Assembly (NCBI GenBank): GCA_028866435.1
Contig: JAGWIC010000011.1
Span: 1-52,569, forward strand
Origin: Lysobacteraceae bacterium
GTDB lineage: Bacteria; Pseudomonadota; Gammaproteobacteria; Xanthomonadales; Rhodanobacteraceae
DNA length: 52,569 nucleotides
Direction: 5' to 3'
The position numbers and the translations under genes are program-made. The notes beneath the pieces were generated by a model, which had not been told where the DNA came from, did no database searches, and worked only from the letters and a program-made list of their open reading frames with translations. This document shows, piece after piece, positions 4,381-13,575 of this stretch. Numbering within the stretch: position 1 is the first letter of the stretch; each line of letters starts with the position of its first letter.

Positions 4381-5745
4381 TCAGTCCTGCGCGGCCAGCT
4401 GCCCCAGCGCGGCCTGCAGCCTGGGCAGGGCTTCATCACGCCGTGTCGCATCGCCGTAGTCGGGCGTGCTGGCCACCCGCTCGCCGTCCAGTTCCAGGGC
4501 CAGGCCGTGCGGCTGCACCCGCGTCACCGCCGCGGCCACGCCCAGCTGCCTGATCCGCTGCTGCAGCGCACCGACCGCCTTGGGGTCGGCGAACGGCATC
4601 GACAGCAACAACTCCTCGCCATCGGCCGCGAACAGCCGGAAGCGGAAGTTGCCCTCGGCATCGCGGAAACTCGCAAACCGCGGCGCCTTGCCCTGCTTCG
4701 ACGCGGCCTTCGGCGCCGCCGCCTTGGCCGGCGATGCAGTGGCCGAGCGCAGACCGAGCGCATCACGCAGCGCGGCCAGCTTCGGCGTAGCCACGGCGCG
4801 TGCCTTCCGCGCACCCTCCTGGAGGATGGCCTCGATCGCCAACGGGTCGGCCATGAACGCCGCATACCGTTCGCGCATGGGCGCCACGTCGGCGTCGATG
4901 CGCTGGTACAGCATCTGCTTGGCGTCGCCCCAGCCCAGGCCATCCAGCAGGGCCTGGCGAAACGCCGCCGTTTCGGGGCCGCTGGCAAACGCGCGGAAGA
5001 TGGTGAACAGCGCGCTGTTGTCAGGGTCCTTCGGCTCGCCGGGCAGGCGGGAGTCGGTGACGATGCGCATGATTGCCTCGCGCAATGGCTTGCTGCCGCC
5101 GGCAAACAGGGGAATCGTGTTGTCGTAGCTCTTGGACATCTTGCGGCCGTCCAGGCCCGGCAAGGTGGCTACCTGTTCTTCGATCAGCGCCTCGGGCAAC
5201 ACGAAGAACTCGCGCCCGTGCAGGTGGTTGAAACGCTGTCCGAGGTCGCGCGCCATTTCGATATGCTGGATCTGGTCGCGTCCGACCGGCACCTTGTGCG
5301 CATCGAAGGCGAGGATGTCGGCGGCCATCAGCACCGGGTACATGTAGAGCCCGGCGCTGATGCCGGCATCGGGGTCCTCGCCGCTCTCGGTGTTGCGGTC
5401 GACCGCCGCCTTGTACGCGTGCGCGCGATTGAGCATGCCCTTGCCCGCGACACAGGTCAGGAACCAGGTCAGCTCGGGAATTTCGGGGATGTCCGACTGG
5501 CGATAGAACGTGACCCGCGCCGGATCGAGGCCGGCCGCGAGCCAGGTGGCGGCTATTTCCAGCCGGGAACGTTCGATCCGCGCCGCATCGTCGCTCTTGA
5601 TCAAGGCGTGGTAGTCGGCCATGAAGAAGAAGGCGTCGACGTCCGCCCGCCGGCTGGCTTCGATGGCCGGCCGGATCGCGCCGACGTAGTTGCCCAGATG
5701 CGGCGTGCCGGTGGTGGTGATGCCAGTGAGTACGCGGGTTTGCAT
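4381..5745 (-). CDS. trpS: Tryptophanyl-tRNA synthetase with C-terminal extension
   Basis: This class I synthetase charges tRNA-Trp with tryptophan. The HIGH-type signature is TPHLGN at residues 14-19 and the second signature is KMSKS at 202-206; the Rossmann core spans roughly residues 1-335. Canonical bacterial TrpRS is about 330-350 residues, but this one has 454. The extra segment begins with an Ala/Lys/Pro-rich linker (about 340-355) followed by a compact domain starting FASFRDAEGNFRFRL, which resembles the UPF0339/YegP (DUF1508) fold. I recall similar extended TrpRS proteins in Xanthomonadaceae. It is transcribed in the same direction as arginase, whose stop lies 31 bases upstream, so an arginase-trpS operon is possible. 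Confidence 0.95.
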   Translation of the reverse strand: MQTRVLTGITTTGTPHLGNYVGAIRPAIEASRRADVDAFFFMADYHALIKSDDAARIERSRLEIAATWLAAGLDPARVTFYRQSDIPEIPELTWFLTCVAGKGMLNRAHAYKAAVDRNTESGEDPDAGISAGLYMYPVLMAADILAFDAHKVPVGRDQIQHIEMARDLGQRFNHLHGREFFVLPEALIEEQVATLPGLDGRKMSKSYDNTIPLFAGGSKPLREAIMRIVTDSRLPGEPKDPDNSALFTIFRAFASGPETAAFRQALLDGLGWGDAKQMLYQRIDADVAPMRERYAAFMADPLAIEAILQEGARKARAVATPKLAALRDALGLRSATASPAKAAAPKAASKQGKAPRFASFRDAEGNFRFRLFAADGEELLLSMPFADPKAVGALQQRIRQLGVAAAVTRVQPHGLALELDGERVASTPDYGDATRRDEALPRLQAALGQLAAQD

Positions 5746-5776
5746 GGTGTTCGCTTGTGAATGGTTCGGCTTGGGC

Positions 5777-6694
5777 CTAGCGGCGAATCAGGGTCGACTT
5801 GCCGAACAGTGACTCCACCAGGTCCACGGCGAGCTTGGCCGTGGCGTTGCGCTTGTCGAAGGCCGGGTTCAGCTCGACGATGTCGAGCGAACCAAGCAGC
5901 CCCGTGTCGGCGATCATTTCCATGCACAGTTGCGCCTCGCGATAGGTCGGCCCGCCACGCACGGTGGTGCCCACGCCCGGCGCGATGCTCGGATCGAGAA
6001 AATCGACATCGAAGCTGACATGCAGGTGGGTGTCGCCGTCGATGCCGGCCAGGGCCTGTTCCATCACCCGCTTCATGCCCTCTTCGTCGATGTGGCGCAT
6101 GTCGTAGATGCCGACGTTGGCCTGCCGCACCAGCTGCTTCTCGCCGTAATCGACCGAACGGATGCCGATCTGGCGGAATACGTCGGGCGTCGTCGCCGGG
6201 CCACTGCCTCCAAGCTCGGTCAGCGCCTTCGGCCCATAACCGCACAGGCACGCCACCGGCATGCCATGGATGTTGCCCGAGGGCGTCGCCTGCGCGGTAT
6301 TGAAATCCGAGTGCGCGTCCAGCCAGAGCACGCACAGTTTCTTGGCTACCTCGCGGCAATGGCGGGCGACCGCGGCGATCGAACCGATCGCCAGGCAATG
6401 ATCGCCGCCAAGCATGATCGGCAGGCGCCCTGCCTGGAGTTCTTCGCGAACCGCCGCGTAGACAGCCGTGTTCCAGGCGACCACCTCGTCCAGGTGCCGA
6501 TAGCCGTCGACCGGCGGCAGCCACGGATTGAGCGGACCGTGCAGGTTGCCGCGATCGACCACCTGCAACCCCCGCCGCTCCAGCTTCGGGGCGAGATTGG
6601 CCACGCGCAAGGCCTCCGGCCCCATCGACGCGCCGCGATGCCCGGCACCGATGTCGGTCGGCACGCCAATCAAGGAAACGGTCTGACTGCTCAT
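5777..6694 (-). CDS. rocF: Arginase
   Basis: This 305-residue ureohydrolase hydrolyses arginine to ornithine and urea using a binuclear manganese centre. The metal-binding motifs are all present: GGDHCLAIGS, WLDAHSDFNT followed by SGNIHGMP, and SFDVDFLDPSIAPG. The SGN-HG segment and the C-terminal SLDIVELNPAFD favour arginase over agmatinase or formimidoylglutamase. I chose ATG 6694 (MSSQTVSLIGVP), which matches the family N-terminus, although the frame stays open for another 465 bases upstream, a common artefact of high GC. Its neighbour trpS lies 31 bases downstream on the same strand. No regulator of arginine catabolism is visible nearby. Confidence 0.92.
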   Translation of the reverse strand: MSSQTVSLIGVPTDIGAGHRGASMGPEALRVANLAPKLERRGLQVVDRGNLHGPLNPWLPPVDGYRHLDEVVAWNTAVYAAVREELQAGRLPIMLGGDHCLAIGSIAAVARHCREVAKKLCVLWLDAHSDFNTAQATPSGNIHGMPVACLCGYGPKALTELGGSGPATTPDVFRQIGIRSVDYGEKQLVRQANVGIYDMRHIDEEGMKRVMEQALAGIDGDTHLHVSFDVDFLDPSIAPGVGTTVRGGPTYREAQLCMEMIADTGLLGSLDIVELNPAFDKRNATAKLAVDLVESLFGKSTLIRR

Positions 6695-7092
6695 GAATTC
6701 GGGTACCTGCGTTGACGGGCATGGCAGGCGCAAGGGCACAGCCCCGTCGCACCACCGATGCCGGCGCGACGGACCCGCGTCGAGCCGCCGTTGACCGAGG
6801 CTCGAGGGCGGAGCGCCGTCGTCCGGATGGAAGAGAGCTTCGCGACCAGCGTGGCCGCGAGCCACCGAGTTTACCGGAACGACCCCTGCCACGCCCGGAT
6901 GCGCTCTGCTGCGGGCGCGCCGGGACCAGCGGCGAAGCCCGAGGTCGCGGATGCGCTGCCGCGCGCCCGCGACAACGGTGCCGGCCGGGACAGGCGGGGA
7001 ACGGGGTTCCATTTCCAGCGCGGTGCGGAAGATCGATCCGGCAAGGGGAGCGGTCCCACCGCCATCCGCGTGCCCTGCCGCGCCGGCCCGGC

Positions 7093-7284
7093 CTATTCCA
7101 TCTGCCGCCGGCGTGCCAGCTCGTCCTCGCGACGCGATCTCGCCCCCGAATGCCAGCACACCAAATCGTCACCCTTGGGTGGCGGGGGCTGGGTTGTTGC
7201 GTCCTTCATGACCCTGGCCATCAGCGTCCCTGCAAACAGCGCGTATCGCCACCCGAAGGCGGGACCCGCGAAAAATGTTTGCAT
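7093..7284 (-). CDS. Possible small hypothetical protein (63 aa)
   Basis: A 63-codon frame begins MQTFFAGPAFGWRYALFAG and ends with a basic, Arg-rich tail (ARSRREDELARRRQME). A purine-rich GGGAGTGAG element stands 4-11 bases before the ATG. The N-terminal half could form one short hydrophobic helix (FGWRYALFAGTLMARVM), suggesting a small membrane-associated protein. I do not recognise the family. It lies alone in a gene-poor region upstream of arginase on the same strand, 398 bases away. It could equally be a chance frame; codon-level conservation would decide. Confidence 0.35.
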   Translation of the reverse strand: MQTFFAGPAFGWRYALFAGTLMARVMKDATTQPPPPKGDDLVCWHSGARSRREDELARRRQME

Positions 7285-7964
7285 GTCACTCACTCCCGGC
7301 TGCCCCTGTGCAGCCGTGCGACGATCGTAACAAGATTCGGCGCCGCCCGCGCAACGTCCCCAGGCCAGGCGAAACCGCCCCCCATGACGCCCCGGCGCGG
7401 CGGATCGCGCACCGCCGATCCGACCGGGATCCCGCGGCATGGGCCTGGCGGCGGACGCATCGGCACATCTGGCCCGCGGCCCGGCGGTTCGGCCTCCATC
7501 GCCGGGGTGTTTTTTGCCCCTCGCTGGTCTCGATCGGCGCTCCCATCCCGGCACCTGCACCAGCACGCCGGCAACGGCGTTTCCATGCCATGGCGCACCG
7601 GCTTGTCGGCAACCGTGCCCGTGGCCTGGCGAACTCCCAGAACCGCAAAGTAGATATGGATGGCCATCGACGCCATGACCGCGATCAGGAAAATGTGGCG
7701 TAATGTCGCACGCGATCGCCGTCACGCGCGGTGCCGCGGCGGCTCCAGGGCGCCGCAGCGACGCCGCGCCCGCGGCCACTTCGCGCCGCCAAAGCGCTCG
7801 CCTCGACCCGGCGGATGCCTCGCAAGGCGCGCCACGTGGGCATTCCCGCCCCTGGCGGTGCAACTGACCGCTTTCGATTCCCCAGGTGCCGGGCGCCGTG
7901 CCATGGCCATGCCGACGCGCCGTGAAACCGGAGTGAACCAGGCGCCGGATCGTGCCTGCGCAAA

Positions 7965-8005
7965 TTGACGCAGGCCGATCTTCTATCCATGGGACGACGT
8001 AACCT
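7965..8005 (+). promoter_or_regulatory. Candidate azurin promoter with degenerate FNR-like half-site
   Basis: A TTGAC half-site at 7965-7969 is followed after 4 bases by GCCGA (3 of 5 matches to GTCAA). A weak -10-like TAACCT lies at 8000-8005, which would put the site centre about 40 bp upstream of a start point near 8012. In Pseudomonas aeruginosa the azurin gene is reported to be ANR-controlled, which makes the arrangement plausible, but the second half-site is poor. Confidence 0.25.
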
Positions 8006-8040
8006 TTGCACCGTTCCCCCACCCATTTCGGAGAAGTCGC

Positions 8041-8487
8041 ATGAAACTGAAAATTTTCGCCCTGTTGCTGCTCTGCCTGGCCGCCGCTCCCACCTGGGCT
8101 GCCACCTGCTCGACCACGGTCACCGGCAATGACGCGCTGCGTTACAACAAGTCGTCCATCACCGTCCCGAAGAGCTGCGCAACGTTCACCGTGACCCTCA
8201 AGAACGTCGGCAGCATGCCGCGCTCGGTGATGGGCCACAACGTGGTGATCGCCCCGGCCGCCGACGAGCAGACCGTGATCAACGATGGCGCCACCGCCGG
8301 CATCGATCATGACTACGTCAAGCCAAACGACGCGGACGTGGTCGCCAGCACCAAGCTGATCGGCGGCGGCGAGACGGCCTCCACCACCTTCAAGGTGTCG
8401 TCGCTCAAGGCCGGTGTCCCGTACGCCTTCTTCTGCACCTGCCCCGGCCACGCTTCGCTGATGCGCGGCACCATCGACCTGAAGTAA
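8041..8487 (+). CDS. azu: Azurin (periplasmic blue copper protein)
   Basis: This 148-residue precursor has a 20-residue Sec signal peptide ending PTWA, then a 128-residue mature azurin, the same length as the Pseudomonas protein. Type 1 copper ligands align exactly in mature numbering: Gly45-His46 (MGHN), Cys112, His117 and Met121 (FFCTCPGHASLMRG); the structural disulphide Cys3-Cys26 is also present. Azurins shuttle electrons in the periplasm, for example to peroxidase, nitrite reductase or terminal oxidases. Position 114, Phe in the Pseudomonas protein, is Cys here, and residue 48 is Val instead of Trp; both are unusual for the copper site surroundings. A GGAG element lies 6 bases upstream of the ATG and a strong terminator follows, so it is monocistronic. 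It faces a cytochrome-porin gene 1.4 kb away. Confidence 0.95.
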   Translation: MKLKIFALLLLCLAAAPTWAATCSTTVTGNDALRYNKSSITVPKSCATFTVTLKNVGSMPRSVMGHNVVIAPAADEQTVINDGATAGIDHDYVKPNDADVVASTKLIGGGETASTTFKVSSLKAGVPYAFFCTCPGHASLMRGTIDLK

Positions 8488-8530
8488 CAAGCCTGTCCCG
8501 CCACGCCGCGTGCGTGGTACCGGAACGAGA

Positions 8531-8569
8531 AGCACGAGACGCCAGCGGCCCTGGCGTCTCGTGCTTTTT
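8531..8569 (+). terminator. Intrinsic terminator of azurin
   Basis: A perfect 15-bp stem (8531-8545 paired with 8551-8565) with a 5-base CGGCC loop is followed by a T run (8565-8569). It starts 44 bases after the azurin stop codon and confirms a single-gene transcript. Confidence 0.9.
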
Positions 8570-9799
8570 CATGTCTGCCGCGGCGATCCGCGTGCCGGCC
8601 GCGCTCGCCTATCGCCAGCCGTGCTGCGCTACGAGATGACCACGCCGCTGCTGCCGGCAAGGCGTCTTGCGTACGTCGGTATTCGTCGACCAACGTACCG
8701 GTAGCCGACGACATGGCCGCTGCCCATCGCCGACCGATGCGCCGGTATCGACCGCACCGCGTCAATGCCGACCCTGGCGACGGGGCGCTACAGCCGGTCC
8801 GCCGGTCCCGCCATCGAGCCCAAGCGCTCGTGCAGCATCGCCACGATTCAACGCGGGCGTGTGCGCGTGGCCCGTAAAACAGGGGCTTGGGGTGCTCGAT
8901 GCGCACCATCCGCAACACCGGAGAGATCGCGTTCATGTCCGTGAAAGGCCCGTGCCCGGCGCGAGGCTGGCCATGGCTTGCGCCAGCCTGGCGGGATGGC
9001 GGGATGGCGGGATGGCGGGATGGCGACGGACTTGTGCGTCACCCCCCCTGCTTGCGCGCATGGCGGATGATCCACCGCAAGAGGTCGGTTTCCGCCGCCG
9101 GCGTCAGGACATGATCCGGCGAGGTCACGCGTGGCCATCTCCGGTCAGTTGCTCAACGAGGATGGCCTGCACGCCCCGGTCAGTGTCGCTACGGGGGGGC
9201 AACGCTCACCCGTACCCAGGATCACCAGGCCGGAATCCCGGCCGGCATGATTCGCACGCCTGAAGGTTCGCGTTGCGGGGCCTTGAGCCTGAACTGGCAG
9301 GCTTTGCCGGCGCGGTTCGGCATCCCGTCCGTGGCATTGATTCTTGCCAGCCTGAACATGGGCGCCGGGTACGAAACCATCCGTTTTCCGTCCACGAAAG
9401 GAGATGGAGATCGCGTGGCGGTGTTTCGTCCTCGCCTGGCAAGCAACAGCGCTGGCCGACGATGTGCCCACCGGTGTTCGACATGCCCGCCTTGATCTCA
9501 CTACGGCGAACCTGCCGTGCGGGCGGGATGCCCTTCCAGGTCGTCTCCGCCCCGGATGCACGTCGGGCCGAGAAGCACTCACGCCACACCGGGCGCAGCC
9601 TGGGTGCTACCGTGCCGGGGACTTTCCGGTACACGCCTGGCTTGCTCATCAGCGTGCGCGGCCACCCTGTCGCCGGAGGGGGTTGGCCAGTTCGTGTCCC
9701 ACCATTGCAAGACGCCGTGCGGTGGAAGCTGTCACTCACCGACTGGCAATGTCATGAAGCTTGCCTTGCAGGCCGGGCCTTTCCTCGGCGCACCAAAAC
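8570..9799. other. Gene-poor, possibly decayed region between azurin and cytochrome-porin
   Basis: About 1.2 kb contains no intact recognisable gene. Minus-strand pieces have protein-like composition: 9222-9446 reads SPFVDGKRMVSYPAPMFRLA and onward to a stop, and about 9050-9115 reads HVLTPAAETDLLRWIIRHAR followed by KQGG and a stop, the latter reminiscent of the C-terminal helix of a c-type cytochrome. Neither has a convincing start, and they lie in different frames, so a decayed minus-strand gene is possible but unproven. An 8-bp tandem repeat lies inside. Confidence 0.4.
8991..9022. repeat. Tandem repeat, 4 x 8 bp (GCGGGATG)
   Basis: Four perfect copies of GCGGGATG stand head to tail at 8991, 8999, 9007 and 9015 in non-coding DNA. 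An 8-bp unit does not preserve a reading frame, which agrees with the region being non-coding. Such slippage-prone tracts vary in copy number between strains. Confidence 0.9.
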
Positions 9800-9828
9800 A
9801 AGAGGGCCGGTCTCGGACCGGCCCTCTT
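9793..9828 (-). terminator. Intrinsic terminator of the cytochrome-porin gene
   Basis: A 13-bp perfect stem (9800-9812 with 9816-9828) with a 3-base loop lies 33 bases beyond the stop of the minus-strand cytochrome-porin gene. Read on the minus strand it is followed by a TGTTTTGG stretch, a modest T tract. It separates that gene from the decayed region beyond. Confidence 0.8.
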
Positions 9829-9861
9829 CATCACACATTCAAGGCGTTGCCTGGTGCCTGC

Positions 9862-11241
9862 TCAGATCGCCAGCCAGACGTAGGCGTACAAGGTGTTGTT
9901 GTCGCTGGCGTTGCGCCCGGCACCGTCGACATTGTGGATCAGGCCGCTGAACTTGGTGTAGTAGATGTACTGCAGACCGAGGCGGACGTTGGCATACGGC
10001 TGATGCCAGGACGTGCTCTTGCCGAAGGGGTTGTAGTCGAACTCCAGCGTGCCACCCTGGGTGTTCGGCGAGCCGTTGTTGCCATAGAGCGTCAGGTCGT
10101 TGCTGCCGTTGTTGATGAACTGCGCCAGGGTGAAGCCGTAGGTGTTCTGGTACCAGTAGCTGCCCTTCACGTTCAACGAATCCAGGCTGTTGTGCAGGTT
10201 CGAGGAACCACCGCTGGTATAGGTATTGTTGAGCGTCTGCTTCTCGTGGACGTATATCCCGTCGACCGTGATGATGTTGTCGCCGAGGAAGTACTGGTAG
10301 TCGCCCGACAGGCCGACATCGTTGAAGTTGTCCGTGGGACCGGCCACCGGGATCGTGTTGCCGTTCAGGTCGCTACCCAGCGGGCCGCGCTTCATGTCCA
10401 GCAGGAAGCCGCCGAACGTCAGGTTGCCATGGGGAACACTCCAGGTGTAGGCGGCGCGGGCATAGGGAGCCAGGCCGGAGAGCTTGCCGTCATACGGGCC
10501 GTTGATGCGGTTGGCCCATGCCACCGACAGCGACCGGTAGCCGCCCAGTTCCAGGTACAGCTTGCCGTCGATCTGGGTGTAGACGGTGCCGCCGATCGAC
10601 TGCGCCGCCAGGCCACCGAACAACATCGGTGCCGCCGGGGCGCCCGGGGCAAGGTCAGCGGACATGTACGGGAAGATCCAGGCCGGCGCCGAGTTGAACA
10701 CGTCGCTGAGGGTGGGGTTGTTGTTGAGCGAGATGCCCCAGGTGCCGCTGTGGTCGCCATAGCTGAACGGATGCGCGAAGCGCACGTCGGTATTGTCCCA
10801 GCCCAGCAGGCCGCCGTTCTCCGAGTAGGTCGCCTGGGCAAACACGCCCATGTACTGGGAAATCCGCCCCGCCAGGAACATCGAGGCCTGCTGCAGCTCG
10901 AGATTGTTGTTGGTCCCGAAGCCGTTCGCCGGCGGTGCGGTCTGCGCCTTGGACGTCTGCGTGAACGACTCGACCAGCATCGCCGAGAGCGGCACCTTGG
11001 TGTCGTTGCCGACCTTCATGGTGTAGCCGTTGATCTTGAACTCGCGCCCGAAAGCCGTCAGCTCGGGGCCGAAGCCGCCGACGTGGCAGGACGCGCAGGG
11101 CTGATGGGTCTGGCGCGCATAGGACGGCACGGCCATGACCAGGGTAGGCGCCAGCAAAAGACAGGCGGCCGCCGCCAGCTTTTGCAGCATGGAGATTCTT
11201 GCCCCATCTCCTGAAGGATTCCACTTGTTCATGGCAAACAT
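9862..11241 (-). CDS. Cyc2-like fused monoheme cytochrome c / outer-membrane porin
   Basis: This 459-residue exported protein has a signal peptide (cleavage after APTLVMA), then a short cytochrome module VPSYARQTHQPCASCH with the heme-binding C49-x-x-C52-H53, followed by ELTAFGREFKINGYT. The remaining 390 residues are rich in alternating polar/aromatic strands and Asn/Gly turns and end in an aromatic-rich strand, as in a porin-like beta-barrel. This layout, and the PSYARQT-CxxCH-LTxFGRxFKxxGYT signature, match the fused cytochrome-porins typified by Cyc2, the surface iron oxidase of Acidithiobacillus and neutrophilic iron oxidisers. Related proteins of unknown function also exist, so iron oxidation is inference. 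ATG 11241 has a GGAG element 9 bases upstream; ATG 11190 (MLQKLAAA) is an alternative giving a tidier signal peptide. It is monocistronic, with an FNR-type site upstream. Confidence 0.78.
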   Translation of the reverse strand: MFAMNKWNPSGDGARISMLQKLAAAACLLLAPTLVMAVPSYARQTHQPCASCHVGGFGPELTAFGREFKINGYTMKVGNDTKVPLSAMLVESFTQTSKAQTAPPANGFGTNNNLELQQASMFLAGRISQYMGVFAQATYSENGGLLGWDNTDVRFAHPFSYGDHSGTWGISLNNNPTLSDVFNSAPAWIFPYMSADLAPGAPAAPMLFGGLAAQSIGGTVYTQIDGKLYLELGGYRSLSVAWANRINGPYDGKLSGLAPYARAAYTWSVPHGNLTFGGFLLDMKRGPLGSDLNGNTIPVAGPTDNFNDVGLSGDYQYFLGDNIITVDGIYVHEKQTLNNTYTSGGSSNLHNSLDSLNVKGSYWYQNTYGFTLAQFINNGSNDLTLYGNNGSPNTQGGTLEFDYNPFGKSTSWHQPYANVRLGLQYIYYTKFSGLIHNVDGAGRNASDNNTLYAYVWLAI

Positions 11242-11286
11242 TTGCGTGTGCTCCGTCTATTTGCGTTGTTAAGAAGTTGTAGGGCA

Positions 11287-11327
11287 ATGGTAGGGCAATC
11301 GACATATCCCAACTTGACGGCGGTCAA
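11287..11327 (-). promoter_or_regulatory. Candidate FNR/CRP-family activated promoter of cytochrome-porin gene
   Basis: A perfect palindrome TTGAC-GGCG-GTCAA occupies 11314-11327, close to the FNR/ANR consensus TTGAT-N4-ATCAA and to DNR/NnrR-type sites. On the minus strand a -10-like TACCAT lies at 11292-11287, which predicts a start near 11280 and puts the palindrome centre at about -41, the position of class II activator sites. The untranslated leader would be about 40 bases. Confidence 0.5.
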
Positions 11328-11889
11328 TTTGGGCCCTCATGCCCGCGGCGCCGATCGCGCCGGTACACGAGGGGTGCAGCGGTCCCGGTCGCGACCGCAA
11401 GCCATGCGCGAATTGCATGCAACCCACTGCTTTTAAACCAATATGTCGGCAGGACCCGGATCGAAGCCGGCACCCGGCAACGGTCATGTTTCCTGTATTT
11501 CGAGCACGCGCGGCAGCGCATCGTGCGACACCGTGCCACAGCCATGGCGGGGAACGAATCGTGACCGTCGGCAGCCCTTCGCCCGCCGCAGGCGCGCCCG
11601 GCGCGAGGGACCAGGAGTGCGCGTCCCTGCGCCTGCCGCCACCGAGCCCGGCACAGGCGTCACCGATCCGTCGACGCGCCGCCCTTCGGGGTGCCAGCGC
11701 ACACGCGGGGAAAGCCGATGAACCGGGGCCGGCCGGGACGAACACGGACGGCAGCCAGGTATACACGCCCACGCCGGTGCCGTGACCGGCGCCGACCGGG
11801 GCCCGCTGCCGCGGGCGATGACGGGTGCGACCCGGCGGCTCAGCCCCCGGGTCGCACCGCTTCGGAGTCGGCAGTAACGACCCCGGGGA
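11328..11889. other. Intergenic region without recognisable gene
   Basis: Between the cytochrome-porin promoter and the 3' end of the OmpH/Skp gene I see no conserved ORF, RNA gene or repeat. All open frames are Arg/Pro/Ala-rich and lack ribosome-binding sites. Confidence 0.5.
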
Positions 11890-12501
11890 TTACTTGGCGG
11901 GCGCTGCCGGCGCCGGCTCGAGGTTGAAGTTGAGGGTGGTGATCCTGCCGTCCAGGCCGCGCACCACGTCGCCGGTGAGGTCGTTGCTGGTGTTGCCGCC
12001 GAGCACCACGTCGCGGTTCAGCAGCAGGCCGCAGTGGTGGCTGGCGTAGGAGCTGGCGACGATGGGCTGGGCCTGCGCGCCGATCTGCTGCATCACCTTG
12101 CTGCGGGTCAGCTGGATGCGCTCGTCGAGCTGGTTCACCTGGGCCTGGAAGCCCTGCATGCGCTGCTGCAGGGCCTGGCCCTGCTGCTGGCGTTGCGCTT
12201 CGGGCAGCGTCGCGGCCTTCTGCTGGAAGGCCTGGACCTCAGCGGCCAACGGCTTGCGCTGCCCATCCAGCAGCGACTGCTGCTGCATCGCCAGCTGCTT
12301 CAGCCGCTCGCTCGCGGCCTGACCCACCTTGGACTGCGCGAACACCGCCTCGCGCGACAGCATGCACACGCCCGGCACCGGATTGCCTTCGAGCTGATTG
12401 GCAGCAGGCGCGGTGGCGGCATGCGCCGGCGCCACGAGGGCGAGGGAAAGGCCGGCCGTGGCGGCCAATGCGGCGACAAACAGTGAGCGATGCAGGTTCA
12501 T
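11890..12501 (-). CDS. OmpH/Skp-family periplasmic protein
   Basis: This 203-residue protein has a Sec signal peptide (cleavage near APAHA), then the Skp-like opening VPGVCMLSREAVFAQSKVG. A long Gln/Leu/Ala-rich segment from about residue 60 to 145 is predicted to form the coiled-coil tentacles of the trimeric chaperone. Skp escorts unfolded outer-membrane proteins through the periplasm. The copy is not in the usual bamA-skp-lpxD cluster, and it carries a longer C-terminal part with two Cys residues (one at VPGVC, one at SHHCG), so it may be a divergent paralogue rather than the main Skp. It ends with a Pro/Ala tail. Function beyond family level is uncertain. Confidence 0.78.
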   Translation of the reverse strand: MNLHRSLFVAALAATAGLSLALVAPAHAATAPAANQLEGNPVPGVCMLSREAVFAQSKVGQAASERLKQLAMQQQSLLDGQRKPLAAEVQAFQQKAATLPEAQRQQQGQALQQRMQGFQAQVNQLDERIQLTRSKVMQQIGAQAQPIVASSYASHHCGLLLNRDVVLGGNTSNDLTGDVVRGLDGRITTLNFNLEPAPAAPAK

Positions 12502-12700
12502 GTGGAGATATCCGATGGGAAAGGTGTTGGCGCCAGTTTCCTGGCCGATTCAAGAGCCTTGACGCGCTGGCCCGCGGCCCGGCTGCAGTGCCGGCAACGA
12601 TGCGATGAATCAGGGGGAAGCGATGCGGAAATCGACAGCAAGCCCGCTCTGCATACGCACACCCGAAATCAAATCAACTTGTTGAATCGCAAAAATTCAT

Positions 12701-12776
12701 TGGTGCCGGCACCCGGATTCGAACTGGGGACCTACTGATTACAAATCAGTTGCTCTACCAACTGAGCTATGCCGGC
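12701..12776 (-). tRNA. tRNA-Thr (anticodon TGT)
   Basis: The minus strand reads a complete 76-nt cloverleaf: acceptor GCCGGCA pairing with TGCCGGC, D-arm GCTCAGTTGGTAGAGC, anticodon stem CTGAT/ATCAG with loop TTTGTAA giving anticodon TGT, T-arm containing GTTCGAATC, and an encoded CCA end (12703-12701). It decodes ACA and, by wobble, other threonine codons. It lies 130 bases downstream of the SPOR gene on the same strand. Confidence 0.97.
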
Positions 12777-12906
12777 GAAGGCGGGCAATTCTAGCAGCCC
12801 GCGGACCCTGGTGGTCGCGGCGGGCCCCGGCGGGACGACGGGACCAGGACCGCACGGCCTCCTCGTGCCCGGCGCGGCCAGACCGAGGACCTGCCGCGGC
12901 GCTGGC

Positions 12907-13575
12907 TCAAAAACAGGCCGTGCTGTGCGAGCCCACGCCGGTGGAACGGATGCGGTCGCGCCAGTCCAGGCGGCTGCCGTCGGCCGCCACCAGATCGAGC
13001 CAGTACTCGGGCACGGTTTCACCGCGCTGCACCAGGCGTGCCGCGAAGCCCGCCGCGACGAGCTCGTCGCGGCGCTTGCGCGCATTGGTCGGGTCCTTGA
13101 ACAAGCCCAGCGAAATGGTGTTGGAATGCTCGCCCGAGCTGATCACGAAGTAGTCGCTGATATTGTGCTGACCGAGCTTGCGCGCCAGTTGCAGGGCCTG
13201 CGCCCGGCTGCCCGTGGCCGGCAGGTAGACCCACCAGCCGCTGGTCTGGGTGGTCTGCTCCTGCCGCGAACGCATGCGGGCGACCTCGCTGGCCAGCGCC
13301 TGGCGGGCATTGCGCAGATCCTGTGGAGTGGCGAACGGGCCGAGGGTCAGGCAGCGCGTGTCCGCCGAGTTCGCCGGCGCCGGGCTGGTGGCGACCGTGT
13401 TGTCGGCGGCACTCGCCACCGTAGCGGACGCCGGCATCTCCGACAGCAGGCGCAGTTCCGGCACACCGGCGTCGGTGGGGCTGGCTCCACGCGCATAGGG
13501 TTGGCCCAGCAACAGCCATGCACCGACGGCGATATTGAACGCGCTCAGCAGGACGAACAGCAGACGCAGGAACAT
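12907..13575 (-). CDS. SPOR-domain membrane protein
   Basis: The protein begins with a single hydrophobic anchor (MFLRLLFVLLSAFNIAVGAW), followed by an Ala/Ser/Thr-rich periplasmic linker and a C-terminal SPOR-type domain (from about WWVYLPATG through GLFKDPTNARKRRDELVAAG). SPOR domains bind denuded septal peptidoglycan, so a role near the division site is likely. I chose ATG 13575; a TTG at 13599 would add eight residues. It lies 32 bases after coaX and in the same direction as birA-coaX, an order (birA, coaX, SPOR protein) seen in many Xanthomonadales genomes to my knowledge. The C-terminus ends in an isolated Cys, STACF. Confidence 0.85.
   Translation of the reverse strand: MFLRLLFVLLSAFNIAVGAWLLLGQPYARGASPTDAGVPELRLLSEMPASATVASAADNTVATSPAPANSADTRCLTLGPFATPQDLRNARQALASEVARMRSRQEQTTQTSGWWVYLPATGSRAQALQLARKLGQHNISDYFVISSGEHSNTISLGLFKDPTNARKRRDELVAAGFAARLVQRGETVPEYWLDLVAADGSRLDWRDRIRSTGVGSHSTACF

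Follow-up and report, generated by a model that had tools for sequence, protein, structure and literature searches.

A cyc2-like gene and a convergent azurin gene lacking the copper-loop phenylalanine in a Rhodanobacteraceae bacterium

Rusticyanin has been described as the blue copper acceptor of Cyc2, and the same paper reported Cyc2 together with a high-potential iron-sulfur protein (HiPIP) and cytochromes in Bradyrhizobium, as well as a Cyc2 in the Rhodanobacter of culture KS (PMC5566968). Homologues are also in print for Rhodanobacteraceae (PMC10654088). The function of most Cyc2 homologues outside the known iron oxidizers is unverified (PMC8406198), and in our reading the periplasmic acceptor of many of them is not established. 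Here, we analyzed a 52,569-nucleotide stretch (the window; contig JAGWIC010000011.1 of assembly GCA_028866435.1, from a Lysobacteraceae bacterium placed in Rhodanobacteraceae), which carries a cyc2-like gene and, convergent with it, an azurin gene whose product has cysteine at the place of a copper-loop phenylalanine. The same phenylalanine was missing from the other azurins that we found encoded beside cyc2. The Cyc2 protein alone is a further member of its family and nothing new in kind, because Cyc2 in Rhodanobacter has already been published. The cyc2-azurin pairing was not found in print, as far as the literature was searched, most subscription journals lying outside that search.

The cyc2-like gene and its protein

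The gene was an open reading frame (ORF) that started with ATG. Its parts were placed as follows.

9862..11241, minus strand: cyc2-like gene for a 459-amino-acid fused monoheme cytochrome-porin, P0001 (ORF, homologues, AlphaFold2 model, tree)
11251..11254, minus strand: GGAG, probable ribosome-binding site, 9 bases 5' of the ATG (read from the sequence)
11131..11241, minus strand: signal peptide region, residues 1-37, probable cleavage after VMA (sequence and model)
11020..11130, minus strand: cytochrome segment, residues 38-74, VPSYARQT..CASCH..PELTAFGREFKINGYT (sequence and alignment)
11083..11097, minus strand: heme c motif CASCH, residues 49-53 (sequence)
9865..10989, minus strand: predicted 16-strand beta barrel, residues 85-459 (AlphaFold2 model and fold search)

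An earlier note on this DNA had proposed a Cyc2-like fused cytochrome-porin here without stating the strand; the tree and the structure model support the proposal. The minus strand was preferred because codon-position guanine-cytosine (GC) content and homologues favored it over an overlapping plus-strand ORF (9517-11214, 565 amino acids); the codon-position GC of the cyc2 ORF was gene-like (0.54/0.46/0.89). A match to cyc2 at E ≤ 1e-3 was present in 81 of 147 same-family genomes, own included, and the gene was single copy in its own genome (E ≤ 10). The matches in the family, the close relatives at 80-84% identity and the 16-strand model confirmed that the ORF is a real gene and not a chance one. 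It stands alone, with no coding-like ORF for about 0.65 kilobases (kb) upstream and about 1.37 kb downstream, and its nearest coding-like neighbors were the azurin gene and an OmpH-like gene. An Rfam search of 7000-13500 matched a tRNA gene alone (12704-12776, minus strand).

The single CxxCH described earlier, with its ARQT-type upstream flank and the segment that follows, was present as described, and it holds all the cysteines found past residue 36. Its flanks were AVPSYARQT on the N-terminal side and PELTAFGREFK on the C-terminal side. Across 47 chosen aligned homologues the CxxCH was invariant and the flanks were conserved; 72% of the rows had the Phe of the upstream motif and 74% its Arg. 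Where P0001 was compared with the features that Keffer et al. give for Cyc2 (PMC8406198), it had a single N-terminal CXXCH and a length above the required 365 amino acids, and it departed at two points. Its upstream motif differed from AXPXFAR[Q/K][T/Y] by Tyr for Phe, and its PXL motif (PEL, residues 59-61) lay five residues past the heme-motif His, one further than the 4 stated. Of the signal peptide claimed earlier, a hydrophobic leader was seen (about residues 18-37, followed by AVP, a low-confidence helix in the model); cleavage after VMA is probable. None of the sequence libraries searched names P0001, since Pfam gave only an unrelated match below threshold, and NCBIfam and the PDB searched by sequence gave none.

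The AlphaFold2 model, computed from 47 rows taken from the window and named loci, reached a predicted local distance difference test score of 85 (five models, 72-85) and a predicted template modeling (TM) score of 0.82. Helices at residues 39-45, 49-52 and 63-70 surrounded the heme motif and were followed by 16 main strands (85-458), in line with the porin-like strands expected behind the heme segment. In a Foldseek search against the PDB, the top nine matches were general porins (OmpT of Vibrio, BpsOmp38, Omp32 and VhChip), which are 16-stranded; OprP and OprO ranked 18 and 20, and larger barrels (MOMP, AlgE) were also listed. The top 20 had E values of 1.5e-9 to 2.5e-7, TM scores by query of 0.34-0.46, which is under 0.5, and root mean square deviations of 6.8-12.4. 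The predicted fold is a barrel of porin class, and nothing closer is claimed. The conserved charged strand residues Asp152, Arg154, Glu231, Arg262 and Asp308 may line the pore, their facing being guessed from alternation.

A scan of genome contigs with a 24-row alignment gave at least 585 relatives, of which the best 80 were kept. Among the matches listed, the closest were metagenome-assembled genomes (MAGs) labeled Rhodanobacter sp. (83% and 80%) and two labeled Proteobacteria (84% and 80%), followed by Oleiagrimonas, Dyella, Rhodanobacter, Frateuria and Lysobacter at 50-70% and Thiomonas at 44-48%. From these relatives, the host is taken as Rhodanobacter-like. A Cyc2 tree of 127 rows was built by a quick method, unrooted and with Shimodaira-Hasegawa-like approximate likelihood ratio test (SH-aLRT) support only; the chromosomal A. 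ferrooxidans Cyc2, Cyt572 and PV-1 were outside its sampling. Seventeen near-identical rows were omitted from the second Cyc2 tree. Locus L186 was kept out of the trees, as its longest matching ORF had no heme motif; the length of the match cannot be divided by three, so a frame break there is likely.

The refuting outcome named in the earlier note, a place far from every Cyc2 cluster together with a predicted structure that has no closed barrel or no heme site within it, was not obtained. The window Cyc2 was placed with Rhodanobacteraceae inside a group of 107 of the 127 rows, on a branch with an SH-aLRT of 99. This group also contained a Cyc2 from a rusticyanin-type operon (L252), whose gene precedes a rusticyanin-type gene (137 bits against a cut-off of 146.7) on the same strand by about 6.8 kb, with cupredoxin, cox and cta genes between them as read by eye. 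Outside the group were two Cyc2 types from genomes of a family of another class (f39), with the motifs FARQTGxxCxxCHF and FARKYGxxCxxCH. We infer that both are zetaproteobacterial, one being Cluster 1 and the other a second type. A published analysis links Acidithiobacillus Cyc2 to a dense cluster that includes Rhodanobacteraceae (PMC10654088), and because the tree grouping fits this link, the window Cyc2 likely belongs to Cluster 2.

Other cyc2 loci showed features of their own. In L238-L245 and L249, presumably Zetaproteobacteria, a Cyc2-like type had FARKY replacing FARQT. A homologue at G008:C2:578231-579528 matched in two pieces in different frames and is perhaps a decaying gene or a sequencing error. 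A cyc2-cytochrome c locus was 100% identical over 8637 bases between L084 and L319 (Acidithiobacillus ferrooxidans YQ-N3 plasmid and Acidiphilium cryptum pACRY03); it adjoins a transposase gene and may reflect recent transfer or a mixed culture. In L154 compared with window positions 5001-11280, the cyc2 segment was inverted relative to the arginase and trpS genes.

The azurin neighbor and its copper loop

The neighboring azurin gene, on which the earlier note was silent, was the only azurin match in the genome. It exceeded the cut-off of TIGR02695 (165.8 against 105.1 bits) and kept the copper ligands His, Cys, His and Met.

8041..8487, plus strand: azurin gene, 148 amino acids, convergent with cyc2 at a gap of about 1375 bases (TIGR02695 and genome search)
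8434..8463, plus strand: azurin copper loop, C132-TCPGHASL-M141 (alignment)
8440..8442, plus strand: codon of residue 134, a Cys that takes the place of azurin Phe114 (alignment)

We compared the residue two past the copper cysteine (Cys+2), which aligns with the copper-loop Phe of Pseudomonas aeruginosa azurin, residue 114. The nine azurins linked to cyc2 had Cys (3), Ser (3), Ala (2) or Thr (1) at this position, whereas the 47 unlinked azurins of the family had Phe (45), Tyr (1) or Val (1). These 47 came from 57 non-window matches, of which 48 were fetched and one (L301) was off the copper-loop pattern. A class-level search with a profile of the linked azurins added 15 azurin or azurin-like genes, each coding for Phe and none of them closer than about 1.5 kb to a cyc2 match; of its 16 non-window matches, L315 was off the pattern and L317 held the same two genes as L303. 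Azurin-like L316 and L318 (Phe) were used in the azurin trees and lay outside the comparison set of 59, the second azurin of L303 (Phe) was in neither, and the trees include L151 but not its near copy L152. Between the 9 linked and 59 unlinked proteins, Cys+2 separated the two sets better than any other column: none of the 9 had Phe, as against 57 of the 59, the other two having Tyr and Val. The next best was position 83 (window 8347-8349), with His in 0 of 9 against 44 of 59.

The linked azurins were not one clade in an approximately unbiased (AU) test in which long branches were in play (p-AU, 0.0002; 0.0003 with the Cys+2 site masked), and linked and unlinked pairs were concordant in almost every one of 200 pairings. 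No aromatic residue stood at Cys+2 in the three rusticyanin-type proteins (Ile, Thr and Val), of which one passed the model cut-off and two fell narrowly short of it. The presence of cyc2 anywhere in the genome was rejected as a predictor of the change, as the azurins of G018, G039, G116, G031, G049, G082, G107 and G137 keep Phe. The sole Val azurin (L300, G027) came from a genome with a stand-alone cyc2, and the Tyr azurin (L284, G024) came from one with a cyc2-diheme pair. In published azurin variants, F114N raised the potential by 84 to 145 mV and F114P lowered it by 56 to 111 mV (PMC5698706, PMC12071310).

Pairings of cyc2 with azurin occurred at three places of the Cyc2 tree: the window lineage, Lysobacter and four MAGs. 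L151 and L152 keep the convergent pair, with gaps of 2458 and 1263 bases. The window gap (8488-9861, about 1.4 kb) contained no coding-like ORF and had nearly no match in these two loci, though the flanking genes match. In six loci, azurin was the gene directly downstream of cyc2 and shared its strand: L169 (Lysobacter profundi), L172 (Lysobacter sp.) and the MAGs L208 and L216 (labeled Proteobacteria) and L219 and L227 (labeled Gammaproteobacteria); all six exceeded the TIGR02695 cut-off. The sequence of L154 ends too early to be scored. The scan for azurin, HiPIP and cytochrome genes covered 127 loci (the window, 40 family, 6 plasmid and 80 named), and no further locus among them had azurin near cyc2.

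The 127 tree rows are a set differing from these loci, and 27 of them were unscorable for short flanks. In 60 of the 100 scorable rows, window included, a soluble electron-carrier gene lay within 1.5 kb of cyc2: monoheme cytochrome c (24), diheme cytochrome c (14), HiPIP (12), azurin (7), HiPIP with monoheme (2) or HiPIP with diheme (1). The carrier state changed 21 times on the Cyc2 tree. At L059-L078 and L151-L230, 48 of 90 cyc2 genes had a carrier gene within 1.5 kb, compared with 1 of 83 control genes at least 3 kb away in the same loci; the resulting p of 2e-16 is overstated because loci are related and some genomes were entered twice. Representative carrier genes were confirmed by Pfam and NCBIfam. 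A second HiPIP type (L212) fell just under the Pfam cut-off and matched the iron-oxidase Iro model below cut-off.

In Dyella and Rhodanobacter, HiPIP was divergent from cyc2 at L046, L049, L051-L053, L157-L159 and L161-L166, and five sampled genomes of this set (G066, G093, G104, G116 and G125) also hold an unlinked HiPIP copy. Of 16 linked HiPIPs, including L080 and L194, 15 were without a Lys that 26 of 27 unlinked ones keep, and all 16 had Tyr or Trp where 24 of 27 unlinked ones have His. We do not build upon this difference because Dyella and Rhodanobacter supplied most of the proteins, four of which are repeat copies of loci already in the set.

A possible electron-entry route and its rivals

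We give about even weight to the reading that the window gene encodes a Cyc2-family outer-membrane electron-entry protein that passes electrons from Fe(II) or another small donor through its heme to a retuned azurin. After export of Cyc2 to the outer membrane, dissolved Fe(II) or another small reductant would enter the barrel from outside and reduce the heme, which may sit near the periplasmic mouth of the barrel. The electron would pass to the neighboring azurin, in which the loss of Phe114 probably shifts the potential, up or down, or the docking to suit Cyc2, and then to c-type cytochromes and oxygen- or nitrogen-oxide-reducing enzymes. By this route the host could exchange electrons with extracellular iron or another donor, as the earlier note had proposed.

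The host genome had no match to the RuBisCO large subunit in an assembly that is 89.4% complete. It had narG in two pieces at contig ends, three COX1-family genes and 13 cytochrome c matches, and a single HiPIP gene lay on another contig. Rusticyanin was rejected as a candidate in the host, its best TIGR03095 match being 20.8 bits, on another contig, against the cut-off of 146.7. Because no RuBisCO was found and narG and oxidase genes are present, the host would most likely draw on Cyc2 as an auxiliary electron source beside organic carbon, a use that would suit a nitrate-reducing heterotroph. Somewhat short of even, we place a wider proposal: Cyc2 may be a portable entry module that repeatedly recruited acceptors (diheme or monoheme cytochrome c, HiPIP and azurin), each recruited azurin being retuned by removal of Phe114 and converging on the non-aromatic residue of rusticyanin. 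The window azurin would be one such case, in a second, azurin-based route of Fe(II) oxidation in heterotrophic Rhodanobacteraceae.

Several points weigh against these proposals. Because position 83 differs too, docking may be the cause of the change in the linked azurins. Counting supported branches alone, the phylogenetic comparison held 3 independent pairs, too few for the sign test (p, 0.25), and 4 when every branch was counted; long branches are also in play in the AU test. The cited potentials are for F114N and F114P, as given in PMC5698706 and PMC12071310, and not for single changes of F114 to Cys, Ser, Ala or Thr. The window azurin is not co-transcribed with cyc2, being convergent and 1.4 kb off; the gap is unconserved even in L151 and L152, which count as one lineage because they are near copies in cyc2; and no azurin lay within 5 kb of the 80% identical cyc2 of L153. 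Another 8 genomes of the family hold a cyc2 of at least 50% identity and an azurin, with the two genes on separate contigs or separated by over 70 kb. Of the scorable loci, 40 of 100 had no carrier gene of the searched families beside cyc2, and detection there was favored, as some of the carrier profiles, those for cytochromes and the second HiPIP type, were made from genes beside cyc2. A published iron-oxidation test for the Cyc2 branch of the window was not found.

Some of these points fit a different partner. The window Cyc2 may be an Fe(II) oxidase whose partner, a soluble cytochrome c or HiPIP, is encoded elsewhere in the genome; the azurin would then be a neighbor by history alone and work in another pathway such as denitrification. 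The lack of any operon joining azurin to the window cyc2, its absence near L153, the HiPIP and cytochromes c elsewhere in the genome and the absence of azurin beside most scanned Rhodanobacteraceae orthologues favor this explanation. We consider it rather unlikely, as the cyc2-azurin pair is kept in the nearest lineage although the gap is not, and the window azurin is of the Phe114-less kind seen beside cyc2 elsewhere. The same protein might also take electrons from a donor other than Fe(II), such as another small extracellular reductant, an electrode-like surface or a humic compound. To our knowledge, Dyella, Oleiagrimonas and Lysobacter are not known as iron oxidizers, which counts for such a donor. 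Keffer et al. rate the function of Cluster 3 as the most uncertain and much of Cluster 2 as far from tested proteins (PMC8406198), and the Cyc2 homologue of Ca. Tenderia responds to cathode potential (PMC5371394); we hold this alternative to be possible, on the doubtful side.

Outward flow, through an electron-export or redox-sensing porin, appears improbable. Sequence cannot give the direction, and porin-cytochromes of the MtoA/MtrA kind may run either way (PMC10734462), but the azurin, HiPIP and cytochrome c carriers beside cyc2 would fit uptake towards oxidases. That P0001 is an ordinary porin with a CxxCH by chance agrees with the absence of a name from Pfam and NCBIfam; the invariant motif and conserved flanks make its probability negligible. 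Returning to the electron-entry reading, the azurin neighbor with its repeated site-specific change offers a concrete acceptor candidate and an in vitro two-protein system, and the cyc2-linked change hints at how Cyc2 and azurin work together. Should the reading hold, Rhodanobacter-like heterotrophs that reduce nitrate could draw electrons from iron or some other donor outside the cell, and evolution would have made use of azurin position 114, the one that protein designers chose in the laboratory to set potentials.

Comparison with known Cyc2 systems

As described in PMC8406198, Cyc2PV-1 of Mariprofundus (Cluster 1) has the architecture and the heme-flanking motif of the window protein. In contrast, the rows that we infer to be of Cyc2PV-1 type lay outside the window group and mostly aligned over about the N-terminal third or less. 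The Cyc2 of Rhodanobacter in culture KS and the Cyc2-HiPIP cluster of Bradyrhizobium (PMC5566968) share with the window the host genus or family and soluble carriers beside cyc2, but the window cyc2 has no HiPIP beside it, and azurin is unmentioned in section 12 of that paper. Unlike typical azurins (TIGR02695), the window azurin has Cys at Phe114 and a residue other than His at position 83. It also differs from rusticyanin (TIGR03095), as it was not among the matches of that model and has three, not four, residues between the loop His and Met. Compared with the rus system of A. ferrooxidans, the window lacks the cyc2-cyc1-cup-cox-rus order around cyc2, has azurin and not rusticyanin, carries YARQT for FARQT and belongs to a host without a RuBisCO match. 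With the Cyc2/rus operon of that species (Cluster 2), it shares the fused monoheme cytochrome-porin, a tree group that includes the rus-type L252 and a blue copper gene nearby.
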